Below, piece after piece: positions 20,094 to 33,609 of a DNA stretch of 64,000 nt (position 1 is its first letter; each line of letters opens with the position of its first letter). Under the pieces are notes generated by a model. That model saw only the letters and a program-made list of their open reading frames with translations. It ran no database searches and was not told the DNA's origin. A program made the position numbers and the translations under genes. Source of the DNA: Psychrosphaera aestuarii (lineage in GTDB: Bacteria; Pseudomonadota; Gammaproteobacteria; Enterobacterales; Alteromonadaceae); assembly GCF_017948405.1 (NCBI RefSeq), contig NZ_CP072844.1, positions 2,666,001 to 2,730,000 of the forward strand, written 5' to 3'.

Positions 20094-20747
20094 CTATAGT
20101 GTTGTAATTCCACTTTTTATAGCGTAGCGCACTAACGACGCAAGGTCTCTTATTTGGAGTCGTTCCATAATCTGCGAACGATGAGACTCAATTGTTTTTA
20201 CGCTAAGCCCCAAATCATAGGCTATTTCTTTGGTGCCTTTACCATCCGCTAACATTTTTAAAATCTCTGTTTGCCTTGGAGTTAATAGTTTTTCTGGTTG
20301 TAGATCAACTTGCTGCTTGGTGGGACTGATTGTTTCTAGTATTTGTTCCGACAGTTTAGGACTAATATAAACTTCGTTTCTTAGTACGGCTTCAAGCGCT
20401 AACTCTAGCTCTACTTCGGCAGAGTCTTTTAGTAAATAAGCATGTGCACCACGCTCAATGGCAGTTTGCAAGTAGTCACTTGTATTGTGCATAGTCAATA
20501 AAATAACCGGTAACTCTGGGTGTAAAGCTTTTACATCCGTTAAGGCATCTAATCCTGATTTATGTTTCATAGCGATATCTAGTACCACAACATCTGGACA
20601 AGTTTGCTCGATCAGCTCAATAACCTCGTTTCCATCAGCGCCTTCAGCAACCACTTCATAATCACCCAGGTCATCTAATAATGCTCGTAGACCCGCTCGC
20701 ACTAAGTGATGATCATCAACTAAAACCACCTTTTTTCTATCTTTCAT
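20094..20747 (-). CDS. NarL/FixJ-family response regulator
   Basis: A 217-residue two-component regulator. The receiver (about residues 5-122) has the acidic pair D-D-H-H near 11, the phospho-acceptor Asp in V-V-V-L-D-I-A near 57, Thr in L-L-T-M-H and Lys in L-L-K-D-S. A LuxR-type helix-turn-helix (about 148-212) reads L-T-P-R-Q-T-E-I-L-K-M-L-A-D-G-K-G-T-K-E-I-A. It should be phosphorylated by the HisKA_3 kinase encoded directly upstream, whose stop overlaps this start by four bases (ATGA). It ends a four-gene minus-strand signalling operon. Targets are not visible. Confidence 0.92.
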   Translation of the reverse strand: MKDRKKVVLVDDHHLVRAGLRALLDDLGDYEVVAEGADGNEVIELIEQTCPDVVVLDIAMKHKSGLDALTDVKALHPELPVILLTMHNTSDYLQTAIERGAHAYLLKDSAEVELELALEAVLRNEVYISPKLSEQILETISPTKQQVDLQPEKLLTPRQTEILKMLADGKGTKEIAYDLGLSVKTIESHRSQIMERLQIRDLASLVRYAIKSGITTL

Positions 20748-22765
20748 AATAGCTCTCCTTGATAGCCTTCTTTAGAGTCTAAACTTGTAAATGTATTTCG
20801 CAACGGTATTTGCACCTTAATATCAGTACCTAAAAAAGGTTTTGATAGTATTTTAAACTCACCACCAGCCAACTCTACTCGCTCTTTCATATTTACCAGA
20901 CCAACACTGTCACTTTGCGCGTGAACGTCAAAACCTCGACCGTCATCACTGATTTGCAATACTAAAACCTCATCATCACTTCGTAGTTTAACTTTCACAT
21001 TCTTTGCATCGGCATGCTTTACAATGTTAGTTAATGACTCTTGAACAATTCTGAACCCAACAATTTCGGCTTGCTTATCTATAAGCTCGTTAAAACCTGA
21101 GTCATCAATTTCGTAGTGCACGCCATCGATACTCAATAACTTATCCATTTGCCATTTTATAGCGGGAGAAAAACCTAATGAATCTAGCTGTGCGGGGCGT
21201 AATAAAAGAGACAAGTTTCTGACTGTATCTAAGCTTTGACTTGCAATCATGTGAATATCCGAAACCTTTTCCAGTAGAGCCTCATCGGTAATACGACGAC
21301 TAACCCACTTGGTTGCTAATAATATTGCAGTCAAAGACTGGCCTACATCATCATGCAACTCTCCTGCAATTTGTTTCCTCTCAGTTTCAATTAACTGCAA
21401 GGTTTTCGACGATAGTGCGCTCAATCGATTATTGGCTTTTGCCAACGCATTTTTAACCCTCAAAACGTCTGTTAAATCTCGAATAACAAACTGGATAGAC
21501 TCTATTCCATCATAAATAATTAAATTAACAGCAACTTCCGCTTCAAAATGTTCGCCAGTGTATTTTTTTAATTTGAAATTAGTGAATCCATAACTGCGCT
21601 TTTTACCAGCGAGCATGTACTTTATGCGATCTCGTAACAACGACTTGTCGTTATCTGAAACAAAATTTGAAATCATCATATCTTTTGTTTGTTCACCGTA
21701 AACAAAGTTAAATAGCTTTACCGCAGCCCGATTAAGAAAAACCACTTTCGATTTTTGCAATACCATAATGCCCTCTGGTATTGAGTCAATAAGTTGGTTC
21801 ATTTGTTGTTCGCGTTGACGTAACTTAATTTCAGTCTTTTTAACCGAAGTCATGTCATATAAGGTGCCTAATATGACGTTTTCTTTTTCAAAATATTGTG
21901 ATTGAACGACTACAAAAATCTGATTGCCACTACGATCTATAATCATTTTTTGTGCATTAAGAAAGCTATCCGCACTACCTTCCGTAAAAGATTTTTCAAC
22001 AAATTTAAAAATGGCGCAGTCCGCTTTTTTATCCAAATCTTCAATTAAAATAGGTGATGAAAACGTGTGATCAAGCCCGAGTAAATCACCAACTGAATCA
22101 CTGTAATATAATAGTCGAGACGCCAAATCTAGCTCCCAATAAGCAGCGCCTGCGGCCTGACGTGTAACATTGATATCGTTTTTAACGCCATTTGAGTAAT
22201 TTTCGCTACCTAACACTTTAGATGTAATTGCAACTTTAATAATACCTAAATTAGTATCATTAATATCGTAGGGGAAAAACGTAAGCTTCGACAATTTAGG
22301 CACCAATTTACCGTGCCTGTCTTTAACGTTAACATGAAGCATAAAGCTGGAATATTTCGGACGGGTTTTCAACCCCTCTAACCAGCCCTTCAATTCACCA
22401 TTACTTTCATCAGAGGTGACGTCAAAGAGACTAGTAATTATATGGTGTTCATTTAACGTTAAACGTTTTCTAGTCGATTGGTTGACTTCTAATATTTGCA
22501 AGTCATCTAAACTAATCAATAAACAGGGGTTACTTGCTTGATGTAGTATTTCGTTATGAAGGATTTCTTTGTGCACTTCCTGTTGTTTCTGATTGAGTTT
22601 AAACAATAACTCAGCGATTAAACCGAGAAAAAAATACAATCCAGCAGTAACAAAAAGTACATTTATCCAATCAACAAGGTGATATTGGGTTTTTATTACA
22701 AATGTTGATAACAAAAGAGTCAAGCATAGGCTAAGTAGTACTTTAGTTAACTCCAAATGACGCAT
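20744..22765 (-). CDS. Membrane PAS sensor histidine kinase (NarX/UhpB-type, HisKA_3)
   Basis: A 673-residue kinase. Two close TM helices at about residues 8-26 and 32-54 leave almost no periplasmic loop, so the signal is probably sensed in the membrane or cytoplasm. About three PAS-like domains follow (approximately 75-180, 205-315, 320-440). The dimerisation domain is HisKA_3 type with E-R-K-Q-I-A-G-E-L-H-D-D-V-G-Q (phospho-His about residue 465). The ATPase domain has D-D-G-R-G-F and G-L-V-N-M-K-E-R motifs. It overlaps the NarL-type regulator gene by four bases, making that the cognate partner. It lies 18 bases downstream of a REC-GGDEF gene. Confidence 0.9.
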   Translation of the reverse strand: MRHLELTKVLLSLCLTLLLSTFVIKTQYHLVDWINVLFVTAGLYFFLGLIAELLFKLNQKQQEVHKEILHNEILHQASNPCLLISLDDLQILEVNQSTRKRLTLNEHHIITSLFDVTSDESNGELKGWLEGLKTRPKYSSFMLHVNVKDRHGKLVPKLSKLTFFPYDINDTNLGIIKVAITSKVLGSENYSNGVKNDINVTRQAAGAAYWELDLASRLLYYSDSVGDLLGLDHTFSSPILIEDLDKKADCAIFKFVEKSFTEGSADSFLNAQKMIIDRSGNQIFVVVQSQYFEKENVILGTLYDMTSVKKTEIKLRQREQQMNQLIDSIPEGIMVLQKSKVVFLNRAAVKLFNFVYGEQTKDMMISNFVSDNDKSLLRDRIKYMLAGKKRSYGFTNFKLKKYTGEHFEAEVAVNLIIYDGIESIQFVIRDLTDVLRVKNALAKANNRLSALSSKTLQLIETERKQIAGELHDDVGQSLTAILLATKWVSRRITDEALLEKVSDIHMIASQSLDTVRNLSLLLRPAQLDSLGFSPAIKWQMDKLLSIDGVHYEIDDSGFNELIDKQAEIVGFRIVQESLTNIVKHADAKNVKVKLRSDDEVLVLQISDDGRGFDVHAQSDSVGLVNMKERVELAGGEFKILSKPFLGTDIKVQIPLRNTFTSLDSKEGYQGELL

Positions 22766-22783
22766 AAAACTCCCTTTTAATTT

Positions 22784-23710
22784 TTAAGCATCGTGGCTTT
22801 TCTCATTGTTTTTAACAACTTCAGTATACTTGCAACACACAATACGATTTCGACCTTGCTTTTTTGCAATTTCCATTGCTTCATCGGCCCGATTTAACAT
22901 TTCGATAACGGTGATATCATCCTTTACATTTTTAGTTAAACCAATACTGACTGTTACACCAACCATTTCGCTACCCAAACCATCTACTGATAACGTGGAA
23001 ATATTATGCCTTATACGCTCTGCAATTGTATAACCTTGAGGGGCCTTAGTTTTTGGAAACATGGTAACAAAGCTGTCATCGGTATAACGGCCAACAACAT
23101 CATATACCCTTATTACGTCTTGGATTAAACGACCACATTTAATTAAAACTTGGTCTCCAACTTCTTTTCCGAACTTATCGTTAATTCCTTTTAAATTATC
23201 AATATCGATTAAACAAACAACGCAATTATTCTCGTAACGGAGAGTTCGCTGCCACTCACTTTTCATTTGTTCCAACAGCGCTCTACGACTTTTCATGCCC
23301 GTTAATTCATCAGTTGTTGCCATCTGGTCAATCGTGTTTAAATGCTGAATTATCCTTTCACCGGCACGCAACCTCAACCACATTTCATTATGCCCAAAAG
23401 GCTTTGTCACAAAGTCGTCAACGCCATTAGCCAACGCTATATGTAGCTCCTCGTCACTTACCTTTTTAGTGACCATAATAATATAGATATGGCGTTTGGA
23501 TTTTTCTCGAATATGAGCGCACAAATCTATTCCCGACATATTGGGCAACGACCAGTCTGTGATTAGGATATTAATATCTGTATCTGACTCTATGACCGCT
23601 AGCGCCTGCTCGGCACTATCAAAGTCTATTGGCTCGTGTCCCCATTGTTTTAAGTTGTTTACCAATAACAACCTAATGATAGGATCGTCATCTACTATTA
23701 AAACTTTCAA
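22784..23710 (-). CDS. Response regulator with degenerate GGDEF domain
   Basis: A 308-residue protein: receiver at about residues 1-120 (acidic D-D-D near 7-9, phospho-Asp in L-I-T-D-W-S, Lys in V-T-K-P-F) and a GGDEF-fold domain at about 135-295. The catalytic signature is T-D-D-S-F instead of G-G-D-E-F, so cyclase activity is doubtful. An R-V-Y-D motif stands exactly five residues before it, matching the RxxD inhibitory site that binds cyclic-di-GMP in related proteins. It may therefore act as a phosphorylation-controlled c-di-GMP receptor. Its start codon directly abuts the stop of the large hybrid kinase, the likely phosphodonor. Confidence 0.85.
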   Translation of the reverse strand: MKVLIVDDDPIIRLLLVNNLKQWGHEPIDFDSAEQALAVIESDTDINILITDWSLPNMSGIDLCAHIREKSKRHIYIIMVTKKVSDEELHIALANGVDDFVTKPFGHNEMWLRLRAGERIIQHLNTIDQMATTDELTGMKSRRALLEQMKSEWQRTLRYENNCVVCLIDIDNLKGINDKFGKEVGDQVLIKCGRLIQDVIRVYDVVGRYTDDSFVTMFPKTKAPQGYTIAERIRHNISTLSVDGLGSEMVGVTVSIGLTKNVKDDITVIEMLNRADEAMEIAKKQGRNRIVCCKYTEVVKNNEKSHDA

Positions 23711-26700
23711 TTAGTTACGTCCTGTATAATTACTCAATTCATTTATAAGGGATTCTAAGCTTTTTTCGGTCTTGCGCCATTGTAGTTCAAATTCCAACAT
23801 TTGATTTTCTTTAGCAAAGGTCTCAAGAGCTATAAAGTCAGCATCAAAGCTACTACCAGTTAAATTACTCAACATTCCTTTGAGCCTATGGCACAATTTA
23901 GCCAGTGTGGTATGTTCTTTTTTATTAAATAATTCAGTCATATCATTAATTTCTTGAGGCAATATCTTAGCTGTCATTTCAACCATAGCGTCGATAGTAT
24001 CTTGTTGCCCTCCGGTGACCCTTTTCAAACCTACCAAGTCTAACCATTTATACTGAACAACATTATGACGGCTATCATCGCTGCTTGCTGCTTGCATAGG
24101 AGTTTTTGAGGTTTCATAAGAATCTGAAATACGCAGAGGTTGAGCAGGATGTTCTTTAGAAAAGTAAGACTCTAAAGTCATTAATAAGCCTCGTGAATCG
24201 ATTGGTTTAGTGAGGTAATTATTCATACCCGCGTCAATACAAATTTGACGGTCTCCAGATAAAGCATGTGCCGTTAAGCCAATAATAACAACTGGTTTTC
24301 TATTTTTGTGACGTTCCAAATCTCTAATCAACTTAGTAGCCTCTAACCCATCTAGCTCGGGCATCTGAACATCCATTAATATGACATCATATTCGCCACT
24401 CTTATACTGATCTAACGCTTGTTGGCCATTAAAGGCTAACGTAGTTTGGTGGCCTCTATAAGTTAAAATATCATGGACCAAACGGCTATTAATTGGATTA
24501 TCTTCCGCTACGAGTATATTGAGCAGTTTTTTCGGTGCCGGCAATTCATCGTCGATGTTTGTCTGTAAATCTGGTCGGTCAATTTCCATTATTTTTACCA
24601 GCATATTAAACACTTCTGACTGTTTAACTGGCTTTAAAATATAATTTTCAATGCCTACTTCATCGATCTTTGATAAAGCGTCATTAACATCTGTAGAGGT
24701 CAACATCATTATTGTTTGAGGTATTTTTGAGTACTTTTTCGTTAAGCTATCTATAAACGAAAAGCCATCCTCACCTGGCATATCCTTATCAACAATTAAT
24801 ACATCAACCTTGCCTTGATTTGCAATTTCATTTTGGTAAAGAACGAGAGCCTGTTCGGAGCTGCCCGCTATTATGGCCTTACACCCCCATGACATAATCA
24901 TGCTCTTTAACCACTTTCGGTTAACTGAATTATTGTCTACTACAAGACAGGTAATCCCTGTGAAATCGAAGTTGTTAATGATGTGAGCATGCCCTTCTTC
25001 ATCACTGAGCTTGTTAGGGTCACCTTTTCGTACTGGTATTTTAATTTCAAATTCAGAACCAATCGATGGCTGACTGTTAACCGTTAAACTGCCTCCCATT
25101 AGACTCACCAATTGACGAACAATTGGAAGCCCTAGCCCAGTTCCTCCAAACCTTCGTGTCGTTGTATTATCAGCTTGACCGAATGGTTCAAAGATTGTGG
25201 TTAATTTGTCTTCATCGATTCCAATGCCAGTATCTTTTATGGTTATTGAGAGTGTGAAAGGGTCTTCAACATTCAGTTCTGCTGTATCTACAGCACTAGA
25301 AAGCTCAACAATTACCTCTCCACTTTCTGTAAATTTCACTGCATTGCCGACTAGATTAAAAATGATCTGTCCCATTCTCATCTCATCTGCATAAATACAA
25401 CTTGGAACATGTAAATCAATATTATATTCCAGCTCTATCATCTTTTGATGAGCCGTAGGCGCAAACCCTTTGAGTATGTCACCAACTCTGTTGTCTAACG
25501 AAAAATTATCTTCTACTAGCTCTAACATACCGGCTTCGATTTTTGAGTGATCAAGTATGTCATTAAGGATCCGTAGTAAAGAAGCAGCAGAGTTTTTAAT
25601 GAGCTCTAAGTATTCGTTTTGGATGGGCGTCAAGTTGGTTTTTTTCAACAAGTCAGTAATTCCTAACACTCCATTCATTGGTGTTCTAATTTCATGACTC
25701 ATATTGGCTAAAAATTGGCTTTTGGCTAGGCTGTTTTTATCTGCTTGGTCTTTTAACGCGATTAAACGTTCTTGCGCTTCTCGTAGTTCAGTTACGTCTA
25801 TGTTACCGCCAACCATTTTAATCGGTTTACCTAACGTATCAGTGACAAATGTGCCTGATGCGATAATATATTTAATCGAACTTTCATCTAGATTTAAACG
25901 GAACTCACAAGACCAATCTCGGCAGTCACGGACAGAGGCTAATAGACTATGCTCAGCATGACTGCGGTCGTCTTCATGAATGAGCGTCAGCCATGTGCCA
26001 TAAAGATCAATTTCAGAGCATTTATCTTCATCTAGGTTATAAATAGAACACATGTTGCTGTCCCATTTCACCTCATCTGTCACTAAGTCCCAAGTCCACA
26101 CCCCTAACCCTGAAACTTTACCGGCCATTTCATTAACAAGCTTCACCTCTTTAATCTCTTTCAGAGCTGCTTGTCTTGCCTCAGCTTCTCTTGCAATTGC
26201 AATAGAACGCTGCCGAGTATTAACCAAAAGCTTGGATATGGTTACTATTAATCCACAAAAGATAAGTCCAAAAATAAACACTAAATTTGCTAAACTGCCA
26301 TCGCTTATTTTATCTTTACTGGTATATATTTTGACTTTCCATTCAACGCTGTCGAGCACTCTTGCCAATGATAATAAGCTCGTTGTATCTACACCTTTTG
26401 GTAACGAAATAACTTTCTCACCCAGCTCATTTTCAATCTCTATAAATAAACCCATTTCTTTGTATCGTTCGGTTAAATTGCCGATAAATACTTGAGTGTT
26501 TATTAATTGAAAAATATCTTTTGATGATGAGTTCAAACTTTTTTCATAAACTAAGAAATAGTTTGTTCCAATATCACTGGTAATTTTTGCTGAGGTAAAG
26601 ACGTTAGATATTGCGCTATTGTCAGCGTGATTGGCTAATTTTGAAGTGATTTTTCGCATTAAATCATCATCAACCGACTTACCTTTTACGTACAAGATAG

Positions 26701-27622
26701 ACAATTCATTATTTAAATTAGATTGTATAATGGCTGTTACGGCATTGAGACTAACAACATATGCTTCCAAGTCCTCGGGGTTAACTCGACCTAAATTAAG
26801 TAAATTATTGAGTTTGCTCATAGCTGATGAATAACGGTCAAACTCGTCATTTAAATCAGACTCAACGTGCTCTAAATAAAAAGATAAACGGCGCTCAAGT
26901 TGCAAACGCTCATGACCATTTAAGGTTTGCCACAGTGACAAGGTAATGGCGAGAATAAAAACAAATACAAGCGCAGGTATATCTATTTTAATGCGATTCG
27001 TAAATGCTTGTTGTAGATGAAATACAAAAGTTCCTAAAGAGACTAAGATGAATCCAATACAGGTATGCATCGCCATATGAGTAAGTTGTCCCCAACCATA
27101 CGCAGTAGTAACATCGCTAAAGTAGCCAGCAAAAGCCACACTAGATACAGCAAATACGACGCAAGTCATTACTAATGAAATATTAATCGGTATGTATTTT
27201 TTAGGGTAAGTATTCAGTAGCGTTAGTGCGACTCCTAATAATAAAAAACAAATACCTGTATTAGGAGACATCCGGCCAGGAGAAGTTGTATTGTCAGTAA
27301 GAAAGTGGGAGACAAATATTTCATCTAAACCGAGATTAACCCCAATAATGTATTGCATTACAGATAAGCTACTCAATAGCGCAGTAATAATACCTAATAA
27401 CGCAGACAGTTTAGATTGACCTTCGGTGAGCGACCATAAAGATAAACCTGATAGAAAAAACAACAGCGCAGTATTGAATTGCATTGGAGCAAAATCTTTA
27501 TGTATTTGAACAATGGACTGGTTTTCAACAATCCACCCCATCATTACAAAACTGCCTAAGACCATAACAAAAATAGATAATAGTGCAGGGAACGACTTTA
27601 GAACTGGCTGTTTATTTAACAA
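23711..27622 (-). CDS. Large hybrid histidine kinase (TM-sensor-PAS-HisKA-HATPase-REC-REC-HPt)
   Basis: A 1303-residue phosphorelay kinase. The N-terminus has about six TM helices (residues 12-205), then a further TM near 218-235, an extracytoplasmic domain of about 205 residues (to about 440) and another TM (about 445-465). A PAS/PAC region covers about 500-625. The HisKA box is M-S-H-E-I-R-T-P near 650. The ATPase domain has N-L-V-G-N-A-V-K-F, D-T-G-I-G-I and G-G-T-G-L-G-L-P. Two receivers follow (phospho-Asp in L-I-V-D-K-D-M-P and L-M-D-V-Q-M-P), then an HPt domain with C-H-R-L-K-G near 1245. It heads the four-gene minus-strand operon. The ligand is unknown; the membrane sensor resembles no domain I can name. 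Confidence 0.9.
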   Translation of the reverse strand: MLNKQPVLKSFPALLSIFVMVLGSFVMMGWIVENQSIVQIHKDFAPMQFNTALLFFLSGLSLWSLTEGQSKLSALLGIITALLSSLSVMQYIIGVNLGLDEIFVSHFLTDNTTSPGRMSPNTGICFLLLGVALTLLNTYPKKYIPINISLVMTCVVFAVSSVAFAGYFSDVTTAYGWGQLTHMAMHTCIGFILVSLGTFVFHLQQAFTNRIKIDIPALVFVFILAITLSLWQTLNGHERLQLERRLSFYLEHVESDLNDEFDRYSSAMSKLNNLLNLGRVNPEDLEAYVVSLNAVTAIIQSNLNNELSILYVKGKSVDDDLMRKITSKLANHADNSAISNVFTSAKITSDIGTNYFLVYEKSLNSSSKDIFQLINTQVFIGNLTERYKEMGLFIEIENELGEKVISLPKGVDTTSLLSLARVLDSVEWKVKIYTSKDKISDGSLANLVFIFGLIFCGLIVTISKLLVNTRQRSIAIAREAEARQAALKEIKEVKLVNEMAGKVSGLGVWTWDLVTDEVKWDSNMCSIYNLDEDKCSEIDLYGTWLTLIHEDDRSHAEHSLLASVRDCRDWSCEFRLNLDESSIKYIIASGTFVTDTLGKPIKMVGGNIDVTELREAQERLIALKDQADKNSLAKSQFLANMSHEIRTPMNGVLGITDLLKKTNLTPIQNEYLELIKNSAASLLRILNDILDHSKIEAGMLELVEDNFSLDNRVGDILKGFAPTAHQKMIELEYNIDLHVPSCIYADEMRMGQIIFNLVGNAVKFTESGEVIVELSSAVDTAELNVEDPFTLSITIKDTGIGIDEDKLTTIFEPFGQADNTTTRRFGGTGLGLPIVRQLVSLMGGSLTVNSQPSIGSEFEIKIPVRKGDPNKLSDEEGHAHIINNFDFTGITCLVVDNNSVNRKWLKSMIMSWGCKAIIAGSSEQALVLYQNEIANQGKVDVLIVDKDMPGEDGFSFIDSLTKKYSKIPQTIMMLTSTDVNDALSKIDEVGIENYILKPVKQSEVFNMLVKIMEIDRPDLQTNIDDELPAPKKLLNILVAEDNPINSRLVHDILTYRGHQTTLAFNGQQALDQYKSGEYDVILMDVQMPELDGLEATKLIRDLERHKNRKPVVIIGLTAHALSGDRQICIDAGMNNYLTKPIDSRGLLMTLESYFSKEHPAQPLRISDSYETSKTPMQAASSDDSRHNVVQYKWLDLVGLKRVTGGQQDTIDAMVEMTAKILPQEINDMTELFNKKEHTTLAKLCHRLKGMLSNLTGSSFDADFIALETFAKENQMLEFELQWRKTEKSLESLINELSNYTGRN

Positions 27623-27876: not shown

Positions 27877-30564
27877 ATGAATAGTAATACGTTAGAAAGC
27901 TTCTTTTACAATGAGTATATGCCCCATGGGCACTGTTACATGTGGCAACCTCACATACTTTGGACAAACGTAGTTGCTGATTTACTTATTGCTCTGGCTT
28001 ACTTTTCTATTCCAATCGCTTTGTTAATCTTTGCGCACAAGCGTCCAGACATCGGATACAAAAAAGTTGTCTGGTTATTCTCTTCTTTTATTTTGTTTTG
28101 CGGTATCACCCACCTGTTCGGCATTATTACCATTTGGCAAGGTATATATGGCTGGCATGGTGTCATGAAGTCTTTTACCGCCGTAGTGTCTATTAGTACC
28201 GCTATCTACTTATATCGCATCCTTCCAGCGTTAGTAACAATATCGACTCCTGAACAAGTGGAAGATATAAAACAATCGTTAAGTAATGTTACAACCGAAA
28301 AGGAACAACTTTATCTACAAGTAGAGCAACAAAAGTTAGTTCAATTTATGATTGATACTATGCCGATTGGAGCGTGCTTATTAGGTAAGGAATACGAGAT
28401 TCTATTATGTAACGATACTTTTTGTTCAGAAACCGGTTTTAATAAAGAGCAAGCATTAGCGATAAAATTAGAGGGTTTACTTGCTCCCGATGATCCAAGT
28501 AATTTAGATTTTTTAAGCAAGCTTAATAACAAAAACACCTTGTTTTCAGATAAAGACAAGCTGCAAACCATACTTCAATTTAAAAATAGATTTGGAAATG
28601 TATTCCCAGCTGAAGTCAGCTTAGTCAAAAAGCAATTTGATCAACAACATTACTATATTTTTACGCTTCAAAATTTAACGGAAATAGAGGAAGTAAAACG
28701 TCAACTTATCGAGTCTCATAAAAAGCTAGAACGAGCAATAAACGCGGCGGAAGATGGTATTTGGGAATATCATATCCCTTCAAAACAAATGACTTGGTCA
28801 GATAAGTTCGCGGAATTGATTGGGGCGAATGACCATCTAGAAGAGTCGTTGGAAAACTGGAAACAACACATTCATCCAGACCAACTAAAAATTGTAGAAA
28901 CACAATTAAATAGCCTCTTTAATAAAAAAGAACGGTTTTCTATTGAGTATCTAGGTAAAAATTCCAGTGGCGAATATGGCTGGTTTAATTTTATCGGTAA
29001 GTCAATTTTCGATGATAATAACGTGCCTATTTCAATGTCAGGTTCACTGCGATACATACAAGACAGTAAAGCTCTTAAGCAACAAGTCGCTGAGAAAACA
29101 GAGCTTTTAAACGCCATATATGAAGGTGCGAATAATGCTATTTGGGTTGTGTCAGTTGAGGACACTGAACAGTTTCGTTTTTTAACCTTTAACCGTGCTG
29201 CTAGCGAGCGATTAAATGCACCATCGGAACAAGTCGCAGGAAAACTACTAACCGAATTATCGGGCACAGTGCTATCTGCAGACATCGTAGAAAAGTTAAA
29301 TCATCATTTCCAATCTTGTGTTGATATCAAATCAGTATCCGAATACAGTGAAATGATCCCCTATAAAGGCAAAAACTGCTGGTACTTCACGTCGCTTTAT
29401 CCAATTTTAAACGCTGACAATGATGTAGTGCGAATCGTTGGTTCATCTATCGATATCACCTCACAAAAAGAAGTTGAACAACAACTATCTGACAACAAAA
29501 ACTTCTTAGAAAATATTATTGATGCAAGCATTTGTGGAATTAGTTTATTTGACTTAACACAACAAAATGTGGTCCGGGTAAATCAGCGATACACCGATAT
29601 TCTGGGCTATACATTAGAAGACCTACGTAATGCCCAAGATAAACTCAGCATTTATCACCCAGATGACTTAGTGGATATTTCAAATCAAATAGAACTGGTT
29701 ATTCAATCACCCGTGAATGCTTCTCTGTCAAACAAACATAGATATCGTCATAAAAACGGTGGGTGGCGTTGGTGTAGCACTAATACAACTATTATCAAAC
29801 GGGATATTTACAACAACCCTTTAATAATGCTTACCACATTCATTGATATTACCGAGCAGTTAGAATTAATGGAAAAACTACAGGAGTCGAACGCCTACTT
29901 GGAGCGCTTTGCTATGGTGGCATCTCATGATTTGCAGGAACCACTACGTAAAATTTCAGCCTTTAGTGACATGCTTTCAGAACGACTTACGACTGATTAT
30001 GAATTAGACGAAGACAGTGAATTTCAATTAAGCAGGATTCGTGATGCGGCAGGAAGAATGAGGGTTATGGTTTCTGATATTTTGGGGCTTTCACAAATAA
30101 ATAGTATGGCAATACAAAAAACGGTTTTCTCGCTAAATGATGTTGTCAATGCAGCCACTGACCAATTACAAATGGCCATTGAAGACAGTGAAGCTAATAT
30201 AATAATAGAAAATGGCGAAGAAACTATAAATGCGGATAAGTCATTATTAATTCAGTTGTTACAAAACTTAATAAGTAACTCTATTAAGTTTAAATCAGAC
30301 CAGTCGCCTATTATTACTATTTCTATACAAAATTCCGCATATTTAACTATTATAAATATAAAAGATAACGGTATTGGAATGGAGTCTAAGTATTGTACTC
30401 AAATATTTGAACCATTTAGGCGTTTGCACGGTAAAGATAAGTATAAAGGAAGTGGAATAGGGTTGGCTATTTGTCAGCAGATATGCAAGGTCCACGGTGG
30501 CAAAATTGAATGTCAAAGTGAGTTGTCTCAAGGTACTAATTTTAAAGTGACATTAACAAAATAG
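27877..30564 (+). CDS. Ethylene-receptor-like multi-PAS histidine kinase
   Basis: An 895-residue kinase. The first 125 residues form three TM helices that match the ethylene-binding domain of plant ETR1 and cyanobacterial Etr1. Shared elements are P-H-G-H-C-Y-M-W, A-D-L-L-I-A-L-A-Y-F-S-I-P and F-C-G-I-T-H-L. Asp35, Tyr42, Cys75 and His79 have exactly the spacing of ETR1 Asp25, Tyr32, Cys65 and His69; Cys and His are the copper(I) ligands. Four PAS-like domains follow (about 145-260, 280-395, 405-525, 535-655), then HisKA with A-S-H-D-L-Q-E-P (His684) and HATPase (D-N-G-I-G-M, G-S-G-I-G-L-A). The ATG at 27877 is preferred over GTG at 27874 because AGGAG ends five bases upstream. It heads a three-gene operon. 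Confidence 0.9.
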   Translation: MNSNTLESFFYNEYMPHGHCYMWQPHILWTNVVADLLIALAYFSIPIALLIFAHKRPDIGYKKVVWLFSSFILFCGITHLFGIITIWQGIYGWHGVMKSFTAVVSISTAIYLYRILPALVTISTPEQVEDIKQSLSNVTTEKEQLYLQVEQQKLVQFMIDTMPIGACLLGKEYEILLCNDTFCSETGFNKEQALAIKLEGLLAPDDPSNLDFLSKLNNKNTLFSDKDKLQTILQFKNRFGNVFPAEVSLVKKQFDQQHYYIFTLQNLTEIEEVKRQLIESHKKLERAINAAEDGIWEYHIPSKQMTWSDKFAELIGANDHLEESLENWKQHIHPDQLKIVETQLNSLFNKKERFSIEYLGKNSSGEYGWFNFIGKSIFDDNNVPISMSGSLRYIQDSKALKQQVAEKTELLNAIYEGANNAIWVVSVEDTEQFRFLTFNRAASERLNAPSEQVAGKLLTELSGTVLSADIVEKLNHHFQSCVDIKSVSEYSEMIPYKGKNCWYFTSLYPILNADNDVVRIVGSSIDITSQKEVEQQLSDNKNFLENIIDASICGISLFDLTQQNVVRVNQRYTDILGYTLEDLRNAQDKLSIYHPDDLVDISNQIELVIQSPVNASLSNKHRYRHKNGGWRWCSTNTTIIKRDIYNNPLIMLTTFIDITEQLELMEKLQESNAYLERFAMVASHDLQEPLRKISAFSDMLSERLTTDYELDEDSEFQLSRIRDAAGRMRVMVSDILGLSQINSMAIQKTVFSLNDVVNAATDQLQMAIEDSEANIIIENGEETINADKSLLIQLLQNLISNSIKFKSDQSPIITISIQNSAYLTIINIKDNGIGMESKYCTQIFEPFRRLHGKDKYKGSGIGLAICQQICKVHGGKIECQSELSQGTNFKVTLTK

Positions 30565-30568
30565 GCGA

Positions 30569-30997
30569 ATGACTATGAATCATATAATTTTAGTAGAAGA
30601 TGATCCTGATGATGTCTATTTCTTTAAGAGCGGAATGAGAGATTGCGAGCGCGATTGTAATATTACTGTAATGGAGAATGGTGACAATCTGTTTAGATTT
30701 TTAGATAGGTCCGAAGTCTCTGACGAGATGGAAAGCTCTTTGATTTTTTTAGACCTAAATCTACCAAAAATGTCAGGGTTTGACATTTTAACTGCACTTA
30801 AAGAGCAAAAGTTACTAAATAAATTAGCTATAGTTATATATACAACGTCAAATTATCAAAAGGATATCGAAAAAGCATATGAATTAGGAGCAAAGTCTTA
30901 TTTTATAAAGCCCTCTAAGAGAGGTGACTTAATAAGTCTGTTAAACACAACAACCGACTACTGGTTTAAATACAATGAGTTGCCAAGGATGAGTTAA
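30569..30997 (+). CDS. Single-domain response regulator (Rcp1-like)
   Basis: A 142-residue stand-alone receiver of the Rcp1 type that accompanies phytochrome-like and other multi-PAS kinases. Residues: E-D-D-P-D-D near 10-15, phospho-Asp in I-F-L-D-L-N-L-P near 62, Thr in I-Y-T-T-S-N and Lys in F-I-K-P-S. There is no output domain, so it passes phosphate on or acts by protein contact. It is four bases behind the ethylene-receptor-like kinase and two bases before a REC-GGDEF gene, so the three form one transcription unit. A second ATG two codons in is an alternative start. Confidence 0.92.
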   Translation: MTMNHIILVEDDPDDVYFFKSGMRDCERDCNITVMENGDNLFRFLDRSEVSDEMESSLIFLDLNLPKMSGFDILTALKEQKLLNKLAIVIYTTSNYQKDIEKAYELGAKSYFIKPSKRGDLISLLNTTTDYWFKYNELPRMS

Positions 30998-30999
30998 GA

Positions 31000-31953
31000 A
31001 TGAATGATCAATTATTATACTTGTTAGAAGACAGCAAAGATGATGTTTATTTGGTCAAATCGATGTTGATCGGAAACTTTAAATCAAGTTTTAGTTTGAA
31101 GAGTTTCGAGACCGTCGCTGATTTAGAAAATGGCATGAAAAACATGTCGCCCGATTTAATTATAATCGATTTAAATGTACCTGATAGTGTTGGTCTTGAA
31201 ACGTTGGTTAGAGTTAAAAAGTTTGCAACTAACTTCCCTATTATTGTTTTAACTGGTTATGACGATGAAGTAACGGGAGAACGAGCAATTCAATTAGGCG
31301 CACAGGATTATATTCCAAAGTCTGATTTACATAAGTCACTTTTGTTAAGATCAATTCGATTTTCAAAAGAAAGATTCTCATTAGTAAAAAGCCTTGAAGA
31401 GAATGTTTTTAGAGATGCATTAACCTTGTTAAATAACAGGGAGTCTTTTAATGCAAAGTTAGACGAAATGGTTAACGAAGGTATTCGTTATGGAAAGAGT
31501 TTTGCTCTATTGTTCATTGATTTAGATAACTTCAAACAAATTAATGATGAATATGGACATTTAGTTGGAGACCAAATTTTAAAATCTGTGGGTTCTAGAT
31601 TAAATGTATTCAACCGAGGCTCAGATTATGTTGCACGGTATGGTGGGGACGAATTTGTGTTACTTGCACCGAATATTTCTGATTTAACTAATTTGAGCCA
31701 GCTAGCCAAAATTAAGTTTGATGTTATTAGCGGTGCCTACGCCGTGGAAACCTCTCAACTGGCGGTAAAAAACATTATTGTTGAAGCTAGCGTTGGCGGT
31801 GCGATCTTTGATATGCATGGCAAAACAGCGAATGAATTAGTCAAGTCTGCAGATGAAGCCATGTACAAAGCTAAGACACAACAAACCGGTATTGCCTTAG
31901 CAGATACTCCTATATTGCAAAAATATCTAGAACAAGACAAAACTAGCGATTAA
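31000..31953 (+). CDS. Response regulator diguanylate cyclase (REC-GGDEF)
   Basis: A 317-residue protein. The receiver (about residues 4-120) has E-D-S-K-D-D near 9-14, phospho-Asp in I-I-I-D-L-N-V-P near 54, Thr in V-L-T-G-Y and Lys in I-P-K-S-D. The GGDEF domain (about 135-300) keeps the full active site R-Y-G-G-D-E-F and an R-G-S-D inhibitory site five residues before it, so it should make cyclic-di-GMP from GTP with product inhibition. As last gene of the operon begun by the ethylene-receptor-like kinase it is the obvious output: signal to kinase to receiver to c-di-GMP. A terminator overlaps its stop codon. Confidence 0.92.
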   Translation: MNDQLLYLLEDSKDDVYLVKSMLIGNFKSSFSLKSFETVADLENGMKNMSPDLIIIDLNVPDSVGLETLVRVKKFATNFPIIVLTGYDDEVTGERAIQLGAQDYIPKSDLHKSLLLRSIRFSKERFSLVKSLEENVFRDALTLLNNRESFNAKLDEMVNEGIRYGKSFALLFIDLDNFKQINDEYGHLVGDQILKSVGSRLNVFNRGSDYVARYGGDEFVLLAPNISDLTNLSQLAKIKFDVISGAYAVETSQLAVKNIIVEASVGGAIFDMHGKTANELVKSADEAMYKAKTQQTGIALADTPILQKYLEQDKTSD

Positions 31954-31981: not shown

Positions 31982-33247
31982 TTAGCCTTTGATAAACTCG
32001 GGATAAGCGTCAATACCGCATTCAGACCTATCAACACCTTCATATTCTTGCTGTTTAGTAACTCGCAGACCAACAGTCTTTTTCAGTAATAACCATACTA
32101 GCGAGCTGGTTACAAACACCCATAGAAAGATAGTCAGTGCTCCAACAATTTGTCCAAATAGACTCACTTCTGGGTTAGTAATTGGCACAATAAGTAAGCC
32201 AATCAAACCAACAACACCATGAACTGAAATGGCACCCACTGGATCATCAATTTTTAATTTATCTAGACTTAAAATTGACAGAACAACAATGATGCCGGCC
32301 AATAATCCAAATAAACTAGCCGTTAATGCCGTTGGTGTCGTCGGCTCTGCAGTAATAACAACTAAACCAGCTAAAGCGCCGTTTAACGCCATCGTTAAGT
32401 CCGCTTTTTTAAATAGCACCACACTTGTTACTAACGCACCAATTACACCACTTGCTGCGGCTGCATTTGTATTTAAAAACACCATAGCGACAGTGTTCGC
32501 ACTGGACATATCTGACAGTTTTAACACTGAGCCACCGTTAAATCCGAACCATCCCATCCATAGAATAAAAGTACCAAGCGCAGCTAATGGCATATTAGAT
32601 CCCGGTATAGCCACGGCTTTACCGGAGGCGCTATATTTTCCCGTTCTTGCTCCTAAAAAGATAACGCCTGATAATGCGGCGGAAGCACCGGCCATATGAA
32701 CTATGCCAGAGCCAGCAAAGTCTGAAAAACCGAGCTCCTCTAACGAATACAAACCAAATACAGAAGCTCCGTTCCAGGTCCATGCACCTTCTACAGGATA
32801 AATTAAGCCTGTCATTACGACCGCAAACGCTAAGAACACCCATAGCTTCATTCGTTCGGCAACAGCACCCGAGACTATAGACATGGCGGTTGCAACAAAC
32901 ACCACTTGAAAAAAGAAGTCTGCAGCAGAAGAATAAACGGCATCACCTAACATAGGATCTTTTTTATCAGCAAAAGACTTTAGAACGTCAGCTTCATTAA
33001 TCGCCTCTATTGCGATCAAGCCTAAACCACCGTCATACATGATTGCGTAACCACAAATTAGATACATTACGCACGAAATTGAATAAAGCGCGATATTTTT
33101 AGTTAGTATTTCAGTTGTATTTTTAGCTCTGACTAAACCAGCTTCTAACATAGCAAAGCCAGCCGCCATCCACATAACGAGAGCGCCACAGACTAAGAAG
33201 TAAAAGGTATCCATTGCATATTGTAAATGAGAAATTTGAACGTCCAT
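31982..33247 (-). CDS. amtB: Ammonium transporter AmtB
   Basis: A 421-residue inner-membrane channel of the Amt/Mep/Rh family with eleven expected TM helices. Recognisable parts are the W-M-A-A-G-F-A-M-L-E-A-G-L-V-R-A-K-N helix near the N-terminus, D-F-A-G-S-G-I-V-H-M (first conserved pore His) near residue 180 and the V-H-G-V-V-G-L-I-G segment (second pore His) near residue 345. It takes up ammonium and is blocked by unmodified GlnK. The glnK gene ends eight bases upstream, giving the conserved glnK-amtB operon expressed under nitrogen limitation. No cleavable signal peptide is obvious. Confidence 0.95.
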   Translation of the reverse strand: MDVQISHLQYAMDTFYFLVCGALVMWMAAGFAMLEAGLVRAKNTTEILTKNIALYSISCVMYLICGYAIMYDGGLGLIAIEAINEADVLKSFADKKDPMLGDAVYSSAADFFFQVVFVATAMSIVSGAVAERMKLWVFLAFAVVMTGLIYPVEGAWTWNGASVFGLYSLEELGFSDFAGSGIVHMAGASAALSGVIFLGARTGKYSASGKAVAIPGSNMPLAALGTFILWMGWFGFNGGSVLKLSDMSSANTVAMVFLNTNAAAASGVIGALVTSVVLFKKADLTMALNGALAGLVVITAEPTTPTALTASLFGLLAGIIVVLSILSLDKLKIDDPVGAISVHGVVGLIGLLIVPITNPEVSLFGQIVGALTIFLWVFVTSSLVWLLLKKTVGLRVTKQQEYEGVDRSECGIDAYPEFIKG

Positions 33248-33255
33248 ATTAGCTC

Positions 33256-33609
<354 letters not shown>

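Follow-up and report, generated by a model that had tools for sequence, protein, structure and literature searches.

An ethylene-binding-domain histidine kinase of Psychrosphaera aestuarii encoded close to a predicted diguanylate cyclase, a linkage recurrent in its family

An older view, quoted in PMC4686702, held that ethylene receptors, known from plants and cyanobacteria, are generally absent from other bacteria. Putative ethylene receptors have nevertheless been reported in many proteobacteria (PMC11819568), with diverse output domains (PMC7700396), and for AzoEtr1 of Azospirillum brasilense both high-affinity binding of ethylene and an effect on biofilm formation and root colonisation have been shown (PMC11819568). 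Biofilm under ethylene is lower in Azospirillum and higher in Synechocystis, and the nitrogen metabolism of Azospirillum is also affected by the gas (PMC11819568); at the protein level, ethylene is reported to inhibit the AtETR1 kinase, with indirect evidence for SynEtr1. One cyanobacterial precedent for a neighbouring diguanylate cyclase gene is provided by GeiEtr2 of Geitlerinema (PMC6682694). Here we describe a stretch of 64,000 nucleotides from Psychrosphaera aestuarii (assembly GCF_017948405.1, contig NZ_CP072844.1, positions 2,666,001 to 2,730,000; hereafter the window), in which a sensor histidine kinase with an N-terminal ethylene-binding domain (EBD) is followed by a single-domain response regulator and by a receiver-GGDEF protein, predicted to synthesise cyclic di-GMP (c-di-GMP), and we report how frequently EBD and GGDEF domains are tied to each other in related bacteria. 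The genes and elements concerned, in positions of the window, are the following:

27877..30564, + strand: EBD-PAS-HisKA-HATPase sensor histidine kinase, 895 aa (open reading frame and Pfam domains)
27877..28269, + strand: EBD, residues 1-131 (the profile PF25487, ETR1_N, spans 27-121)
27922..27936, + strand: PHGHC motif, residues 16-20, just before helix 1 and N-terminal of the ETR1_N match (His17 and Cys20 nearly invariant)
27979..28014, + strand: helix 1 residues Asp35, Tyr42, Ile45 and Pro46 (by alignment; D25, Y32, I35 and P36 of ETR1)
28090..28113, + strand: helix 2 residues Ile72, Cys75 and His79 (by alignment; I62, C65 and H69 of ETR1, in which the Cys and His are Cu(I) ligands)
28339..29835, + strand: PAS region, about residues 155-653 (Pfam PAS, PAS_3, PAS_9, PAS_4 and PAS_8)
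29899..30102, + strand: HisKA dimerisation/phosphoacceptor domain, residues 675-742 (PF00512, E 6.8e-10; H-box SHDLQEPL)
30235..30555, + strand: HATPase_c domain, residues 787-893 (PF02518, E 2e-23; motifs DNGIGM and GSGIGLA)
30569..30997, + strand: single-domain response regulator, 142 aa (PF00072, E 4.7e-17), 4 bases past the kinase stop
31000..31953, + strand: receiver-GGDEF protein of the diguanylate cyclase type, 317 aa (PF00990, E 4.6e-41; PF00072, E 5e-16)

AzoEtr1 resembles the Psychrosphaera kinase in its seven ethylene-binding residues, with D35, C75 and H79 at the same numbers, in its PAS and histidine kinase domains, and in the gene for a single receiver without output domain (AzoRRetr1) just downstream, but differs in its length of 525 aa and its one PAS domain (PMC11819568). 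An EBD from a plasmid record of A. brasilense (locus L258), whose first residues are those specified by the AzoEtr1 primer sequence given in PMC11819568, is 43% identical to the Psychrosphaera domain over 126 aa and shares a PHGxC motif before helix 1, whereas the 8.4-kb stretch around it contains no GGDEF. The cyanobacterial receptors SynEtr1 (slr1212) and GeiEtr1/GeiEtr2 likewise combine an EBD with the seven residues, a histidine kinase and one N-terminal Cys, but they contain GAF domains (PMC6682694), of which none was matched by Pfam in the Psychrosphaera kinase at E 0.001. Plant ETR1/ERS1 have the three-helix EBD with identical residue spacing and the histidine kinase fold, but carry GAF instead of PAS domains and two N-terminal disulfide cysteines, and their signalling is reported to be largely independent of the histidine kinase; with only Cys20 before helix 1 and no GAF match, the protein described here falls outside the plant ethylene receptor subfamily. 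On the output side, PcrK-PcrR of Xanthomonas campestris is also a plant-hormone-type receptor kinase system acting on c-di-GMP turnover, although its ligand is cytokinin, its sensor a CHASE domain and its output a c-di-GMP phosphodiesterase (PMC7700396).

Only 2 bases separate the genes for the single receiver and the receiver-GGDEF protein in the window. The latter has an intact GGDEF active site and an RGSD I-site (RxxD), the Asp/Thr/Lys sets of the operon's receivers are complete as judged by eye, and the layout is PleD-like, so that the 317-aa protein is predicted to be a c-di-GMP-synthesising diguanylate cyclase. This downstream GGDEF gene, not mentioned in the initial annotation of the EBD locus, which had been made from the sequence alone, is in our opinion more informative than the EBD itself.

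Linkage was assessed in the family of the host, for which 74 stretches were fetched from 101 EBD places, taking higher scores first. Genes were called as longest open frames of at least 70 aa and domains by purpose-built hidden Markov models (HMMs); neighbouring genes on one strand were joined into a run as long as no gap exceeded 300 bases, and up to three genes to each side were inspected for GGDEF. Without the degenerate rows L242 and L245 (<40 bits) and the broken gene of L244, 71 intact EBD genes remained, of which 39 have GGDEF in the same run, 13 are EBD-GGDEF fusions, 9 have it adjacent on the opposite strand and 10 have none. GGDEF is thus in the same run or fused to the EBD in 52 of 71 cases within the family and in 1 of 24 outside it. 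The outside set comprised all 25 places of a phylum draw plus L246, of the same order, minus L241 (<40 bits) and L243 (no HMM match); it contained one same-run case (L246), no fusion, one adjacent case (L220) and 22 EBD genes with none, some of these stretches stopping near a contig end (e.g. L233), where a neighbour could be hidden. The contrast is large by Fisher's test, all p-values of which, here and below, ignore relatedness. A rough baseline from the host genome itself (35 HATPase_c and 42 GGDEF matches) gave 3 of 34 other HATPase_c matches followed on their own strand by a GGDEF at a distance of up to 3 kb, close to that limit in two cases, under a rule that differs from that of the family counts and with HATPase_c matches that are not all kinases.

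GGDEF lies downstream in 36 of the 39 same-run cases (two with the kinase in a separate frame) and upstream in three, and a single receiver stands between the EBD kinase and the downstream GGDEF gene in 30 of 34 family operons; in the remaining four (L159, L177, L180 and L184), which encode hybrid kinases, the receiver-GGDEF gene is the next one. All 13 fusions, about 320-335 aa long, carry GGEEF with RxxD upstream, and Pfam confirmed both domains in all three that were checked (L176, L198 and L199). In the literature searched (titles and abstract starts, covering few subscription journals), no proteobacterial example of EBDs wired or directly fused to GGDEF proteins came to light, and a 2019 review of nonplant receptors, outside this coverage, may show an EBD-GGDEF protein. 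Separately, four loci (L205, L212, L213 and L255) encode a stand-alone EBD with a short tail, 182-184 aa in all (Pfam on L205), flanked on either side by kinase genes; at three of these loci the run also contains a GGDEF-EAL-like gene. The stand-alone protein is possibly a detached ethylene-binding subunit.

In the reciprocal direction, the receiver-GGDEF protein matched 32 places at E <= 1e-50 in 395 family genomes, 26 of which lie 3-4 kb from an EBD by their coordinates. Three relatives (L265, L266 and L267) keep the order of PAS kinase, single receiver and receiver-GGDEF protein with a different kinase N-terminus, in which ETR1_N was not matched at E <= 0.001, so that the EBD appears as one exchangeable input of a common output. 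The cassette is also kept at L264, where the sensor could not be judged, while at L268 and L269 no match to the kinase of the EBD operon was found beside the receiver-GGDEF gene. The cassette accepts different sensors, the EBD being the commonest among those seen. The region in place of the EBD at L265, L266 and L267 spans roughly 200 aa, with no Pfam match at E 0.001.

A quick tree was built from 103 EBD rows and 139 columns (L020, L021, L241, L242, L244 and L245 left out), with 41 of its 100 inner branches open. It groups 64 rows in one clade (support 88), with 37 operon-linked, 13 fused, 9 adjacent, 4 none and 1 unlabelled. The fusions fall on one side of a single branch (support 95), and the EBD of P. 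aestuarii groups with L187 and L178 (support 98), at which the counterparts of the single receiver are 53% and 51% identical, respectively. At minimum, the labels change 9 times for operon, 12 for none and 4 for adjacent. The linkage to GGDEF looks old within the clade, where it takes several forms, instead of having arisen anew in each genome. It may also reach beyond the family: among plasmid neighbourhoods (eight places fetched of 21 found), two Acaryochloris loci (L259 and L271) run EBD, kinase, receiver-GGDEF, both in pieces: one is split over several frames, and in the other the EBD is separated from the kinase by an IS1 transposase gene. No GGDEF was found by HMM, in flanks of 2 to 8 kb, at L258, L260/L270, L261, L262/L272, L263 and L273.

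The sensor protein itself starts at ATG 27877, with a GTG in frame one codon upstream, and joins a HisKA domain with its H-box to a HATPase_c domain with its G boxes, as expected of a sensor histidine kinase. Its best named relative in one scan, matched over residues 1-893 and 63% identical in the best segment, belongs to Psychrosphaera haliotis (order Alteromonadales); this and the Pfam domains agree with the initial annotation, which had recognised an EBD on a PAS histidine kinase in an Alteromonadales-like genome. Its description of the kinase as four-PAS fits as well: PAS-family matches (155-264, 427-528, 566-653 and further stretches) extend over roughly 500 residues and the region probably consists of four PAS folds. 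The end then given for the EBD, 28270, falls one base beyond codon 131.

The ETR1_N family matched the whole protein at E 4.7e-34 (117 bits) and residues 1-131 alone at E 1.3e-35 (122 bits), the curated cut-off being 27 bits; with scores so far above the cut-off and zero matches in 14 control genomes, chance is not a fair reading. One EBD copy was found in the host genome. In the alignment with ETR1 the identity is 41% over 97 aa, Asp35, Tyr42, Cys75 and His79 are present at the initially noted spacings of 7, 33 and 4, and the seven ethylene-binding residues of ETR1 are complete (Asp35, Tyr42, Ile45, Pro46, Ile72, Cys75 and His79; DYIPICH). Among 105 distinct bacterial EBD rows (the duplicates L020 and L021 and the fragments of L244 left out), Cys75 is kept in 103, His79 in 102, both together in 101, Asp35 in 99 and all seven residues in 75. 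Lys98 of helix 3, kept in 99 rows, is the counterpart of a conserved lysine, K91 of ETR1 and K98 of AzoEtr1 (PMC11819568). An AlphaFold2 model built on four sequences shows helices at 25-55, 62-88 and 91-121 (mean predicted local distance difference test score, pLDDT, 71.8; block means of 72-85 from residue 31 to 120), which agrees with the three-helix N-terminus claimed initially, the transmembrane placement being a prediction. Searches for solved structures returned for the EBD two PDB chains at E <= 10, both unrelated enzymes (best 0.09), for the ETR1 membrane domain no PDB chain at E <= 0.1, and for the EBD model no Foldseek match at E <= 0.001. At the level of sequence, the domain is confirmed as one of the ethylene-binding type, with copper-ligand residues, and as a member of a known family.

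Some natural variants of the site were observed. Glu replaces Asp35 in L216, L233, L247 and L248, with the other six residues intact; in a plant receptor, exchange of the conserved aspartate for Asn is reported to cut affinity about 100-fold. A copper ligand is lost in several EBD kinases with a long open frame (Arg for His79 in L239, L240 and L245; Leu for Cys75 in L242, Ser in L245), which are perhaps natural ligand-blind receptors, and at L244 (genome G359) the EBD gene is broken across two frames.

Conservation extends to the PHGxC motif before helix 1, in which 101 of the 105 rows have His17 and 102 have Cys20, comparable to the copper ligands; the second His, His19, is kept in 68 and is Val in the A. 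brasilense EBD. This conservation is not simply a search artefact, because most loci were picked with the Pfam profile, whose match starts only after the motif. Both His17 and Cys20 are kept in 99 of the 101 rows with both copper ligands and in 1 of the 4 rows without both (99/2/1/3, Fisher 2e-4), an association that depends on six exceptional rows of 105, which do not count as independent, L239 and L240 being sisters in the tree, so that the joint occurrence of copper ligands and motif is taken as a lead only. In cyanobacterial receptors the single N-terminal Cys may replace the plant disulfide (PMC6682694); a disulfide role would leave His17 unexplained. His17 and Cys20 may instead load or complete the copper site, although no geometry relative to that site is claimed, the EBD model being too weak at residues 12-19.

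The reading that we favour, at a probability of roughly 0.6, is that the protein is a receptor kinase for ethylene that depends on Cu(I) and acts on c-di-GMP. The homology of the domain, its seven residues, the intact kinase, receiver and GGDEF motifs and the tight gene order conserved in relatives can be read directly from the sequences; from them we infer copper and ethylene binding, co-transcription, the partner receiver, the sign of the response and the effect on c-di-GMP. Cu(I) would be held by Cys75 and His79 of the three-helix membrane domain and steadied by Asp35, and ethylene would be bound at this site as in ETR1 and AzoEtr1, because homologous receptors are reported to need these residues. 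Binding would shift the helices, and this movement, passed on by the next helix and the PAS domains, would alter histidine kinase activity; the phosphoryl group would then pass to the single receiver of the operon, to the receiver of the receiver-GGDEF protein, or to both, and the receiver-GGDEF protein would set c-di-GMP synthesis and with it the switch between attached and motile life. Its activity and the level of c-di-GMP would be expected to change, the single receiver serving as a second or competing phosphoacceptor.

Several observations weigh against this reading. The PAS domains may bring other inputs, ten of the 71 family EBD genes have no nearby GGDEF, and these 71 are not a random draw (74 of 101 places, selected with higher scores first). 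As 59 of the 63 linked tree rows fall in the one 64-row clade, few events stand behind the family counts. The domain is patchy, being present in four of seven other genomes of the same genus, and the AlphaFold2 model is modest in confidence, with pLDDT <50 at residues 12-19. The single receiver of AzoEtr1, together with the lack of GGDEF in the 8.4 kb of L258, implies that here as well the kinase could have no partner but the single receiver.

Among the alternatives, we regard it as rather unlikely that the EBD binds Cu(I) but senses copper, O2, CO or another alkene, as a general site for small Cu(I) ligands. In its favour, the site residues also serve copper coordination, so that their conservation cannot fully separate the ligands, and one literature search for ethylene in seawater returned no text bearing directly on a source for the host. 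Sunlit dissolved organic matter and algae make a marine source of ethylene plausible. However, Tyr42, Ile45, Pro46 and Ile72 are kept too, whose counterparts are needed for ethylene binding in ETR1 and are not known to be metal ligands, and AzoEtr1, with an EBD type 43% identical to that of P. aestuarii, does bind ethylene with high affinity (PMC11819568).

It is unlikely, in our judgement, that the output of the EBD runs through the single receiver, for instance to motility or taxis, with the GGDEF protein fed mainly by other kinases. The position of this receiver between kinase and GGDEF gene in most family operons, and of a single receiver just downstream of AzoEtr1 (PMC11819568), would suit such a route, but not the four operons in which the receiver-GGDEF gene directly follows the EBD kinase, nor the 13 EBDs fused to GGDEF. 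That the EBD is a ligand-blind membrane anchor and dimeriser, with the PAS domains as sensors, seems highly improbable: loss of copper ligands with the kinase retained (L239, L240, L242 and L245) indicates that a blind EBD is tolerable, and the cassette also occurs with an unrelated N-terminus, but conservation of all seven residues here and in 75 of 105 rows, and of Cys75 with His79 in 101, is not what one would expect of a mere anchor.

Beyond the receptor kinase acting on c-di-GMP proposed for P. aestuarii, a wider statement about the family can be made only tentatively, at less than even odds: that these bacteria use ethylene, or a different small ligand of Cu(I), as a dedicated signal for c-di-GMP, read by the operons and by ethylene-gated EBD-GGDEF cyclases of a separate clade, and that His-x-x-Cys loads or completes the bacterial copper site. 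Plant ETR1 would be without the His-x-x-Cys part that the site has in its bacterial form.

The operon is flanked on both sides by genes on the reverse strand:

20094-27622, - strand: divergent run of four signalling genes, namely a hybrid kinase of 1303 aa, a second receiver-GGDEF protein and a HisKA_3 kinase (Pfam), and a NarL-like regulator (by eye)
31982-33594, - strand: putative amtB- and glnK-like genes converging on the EBD operon

Counterparts of the hybrid kinase and the HisKA_3 kinase stand beside the EBD operon at L178 and L187, and one of the GGDEF protein at L178 (same genus). The amtB/glnK-like pair recurs at three loci of the same genus (L178, L183 and L187); outside the family, the EBD gene at L232 is adjoined by an AmtB-like gene with 28% identity. 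A functional link between the EBD operon and the amtB/glnK-like genes, considered in view of the effect of ethylene on nitrogen metabolism in Azospirillum, was set aside, because the pair was seen in one genus, with otherwise only the AmtB-like gene at L232.

With regard to the distribution of the domain, an EBD was found at E <= 0.001 in 93 of 395 genomes of the host's family, representing 25 of 52 genera (91 above the cut-off), and in 29 of 398 genomes of the phylum draw, some of them from the host's family (28 above the cut-off). The initial annotation had seen in this locus an extension of ethylene receptors beyond plants and cyanobacteria; given this frequency in the family, the ethylene binding of the alphaproteobacterial AzoEtr1 and the proteobacterial receptors already in print, the claim of a new kind of ethylene-sensing organism is overtaken. 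None of 11 pattern-matching stretches in viral contigs encodes a relative, and one EBD-GGDEF protein used as a query matched no plasmid record at E <= 1e-60. EBDs occur in 18 plasmid records (21 places), every one at <60% identity, so that recent plasmid spread of the gene is not indicated.

Ethylene receptors are widely predicted in heterotrophic bacteria, and the processes that they control are known for very few. The frequent tie between receptor and GGDEF protein provides a concrete output of bacterial ethylene sensing that can be measured. With the EBD-GGDEF fusions, the effect of ethylene on c-di-GMP synthesis can be addressed in a single protein, and the PHGxC motif is a lead, open to testing, to the way in which copper is held by bacterial EBDs. 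Should ethylene alter that synthesis, it would be a signal for attached or motile life in these bacteria, and a compact genetic ethylene sensor would become available.

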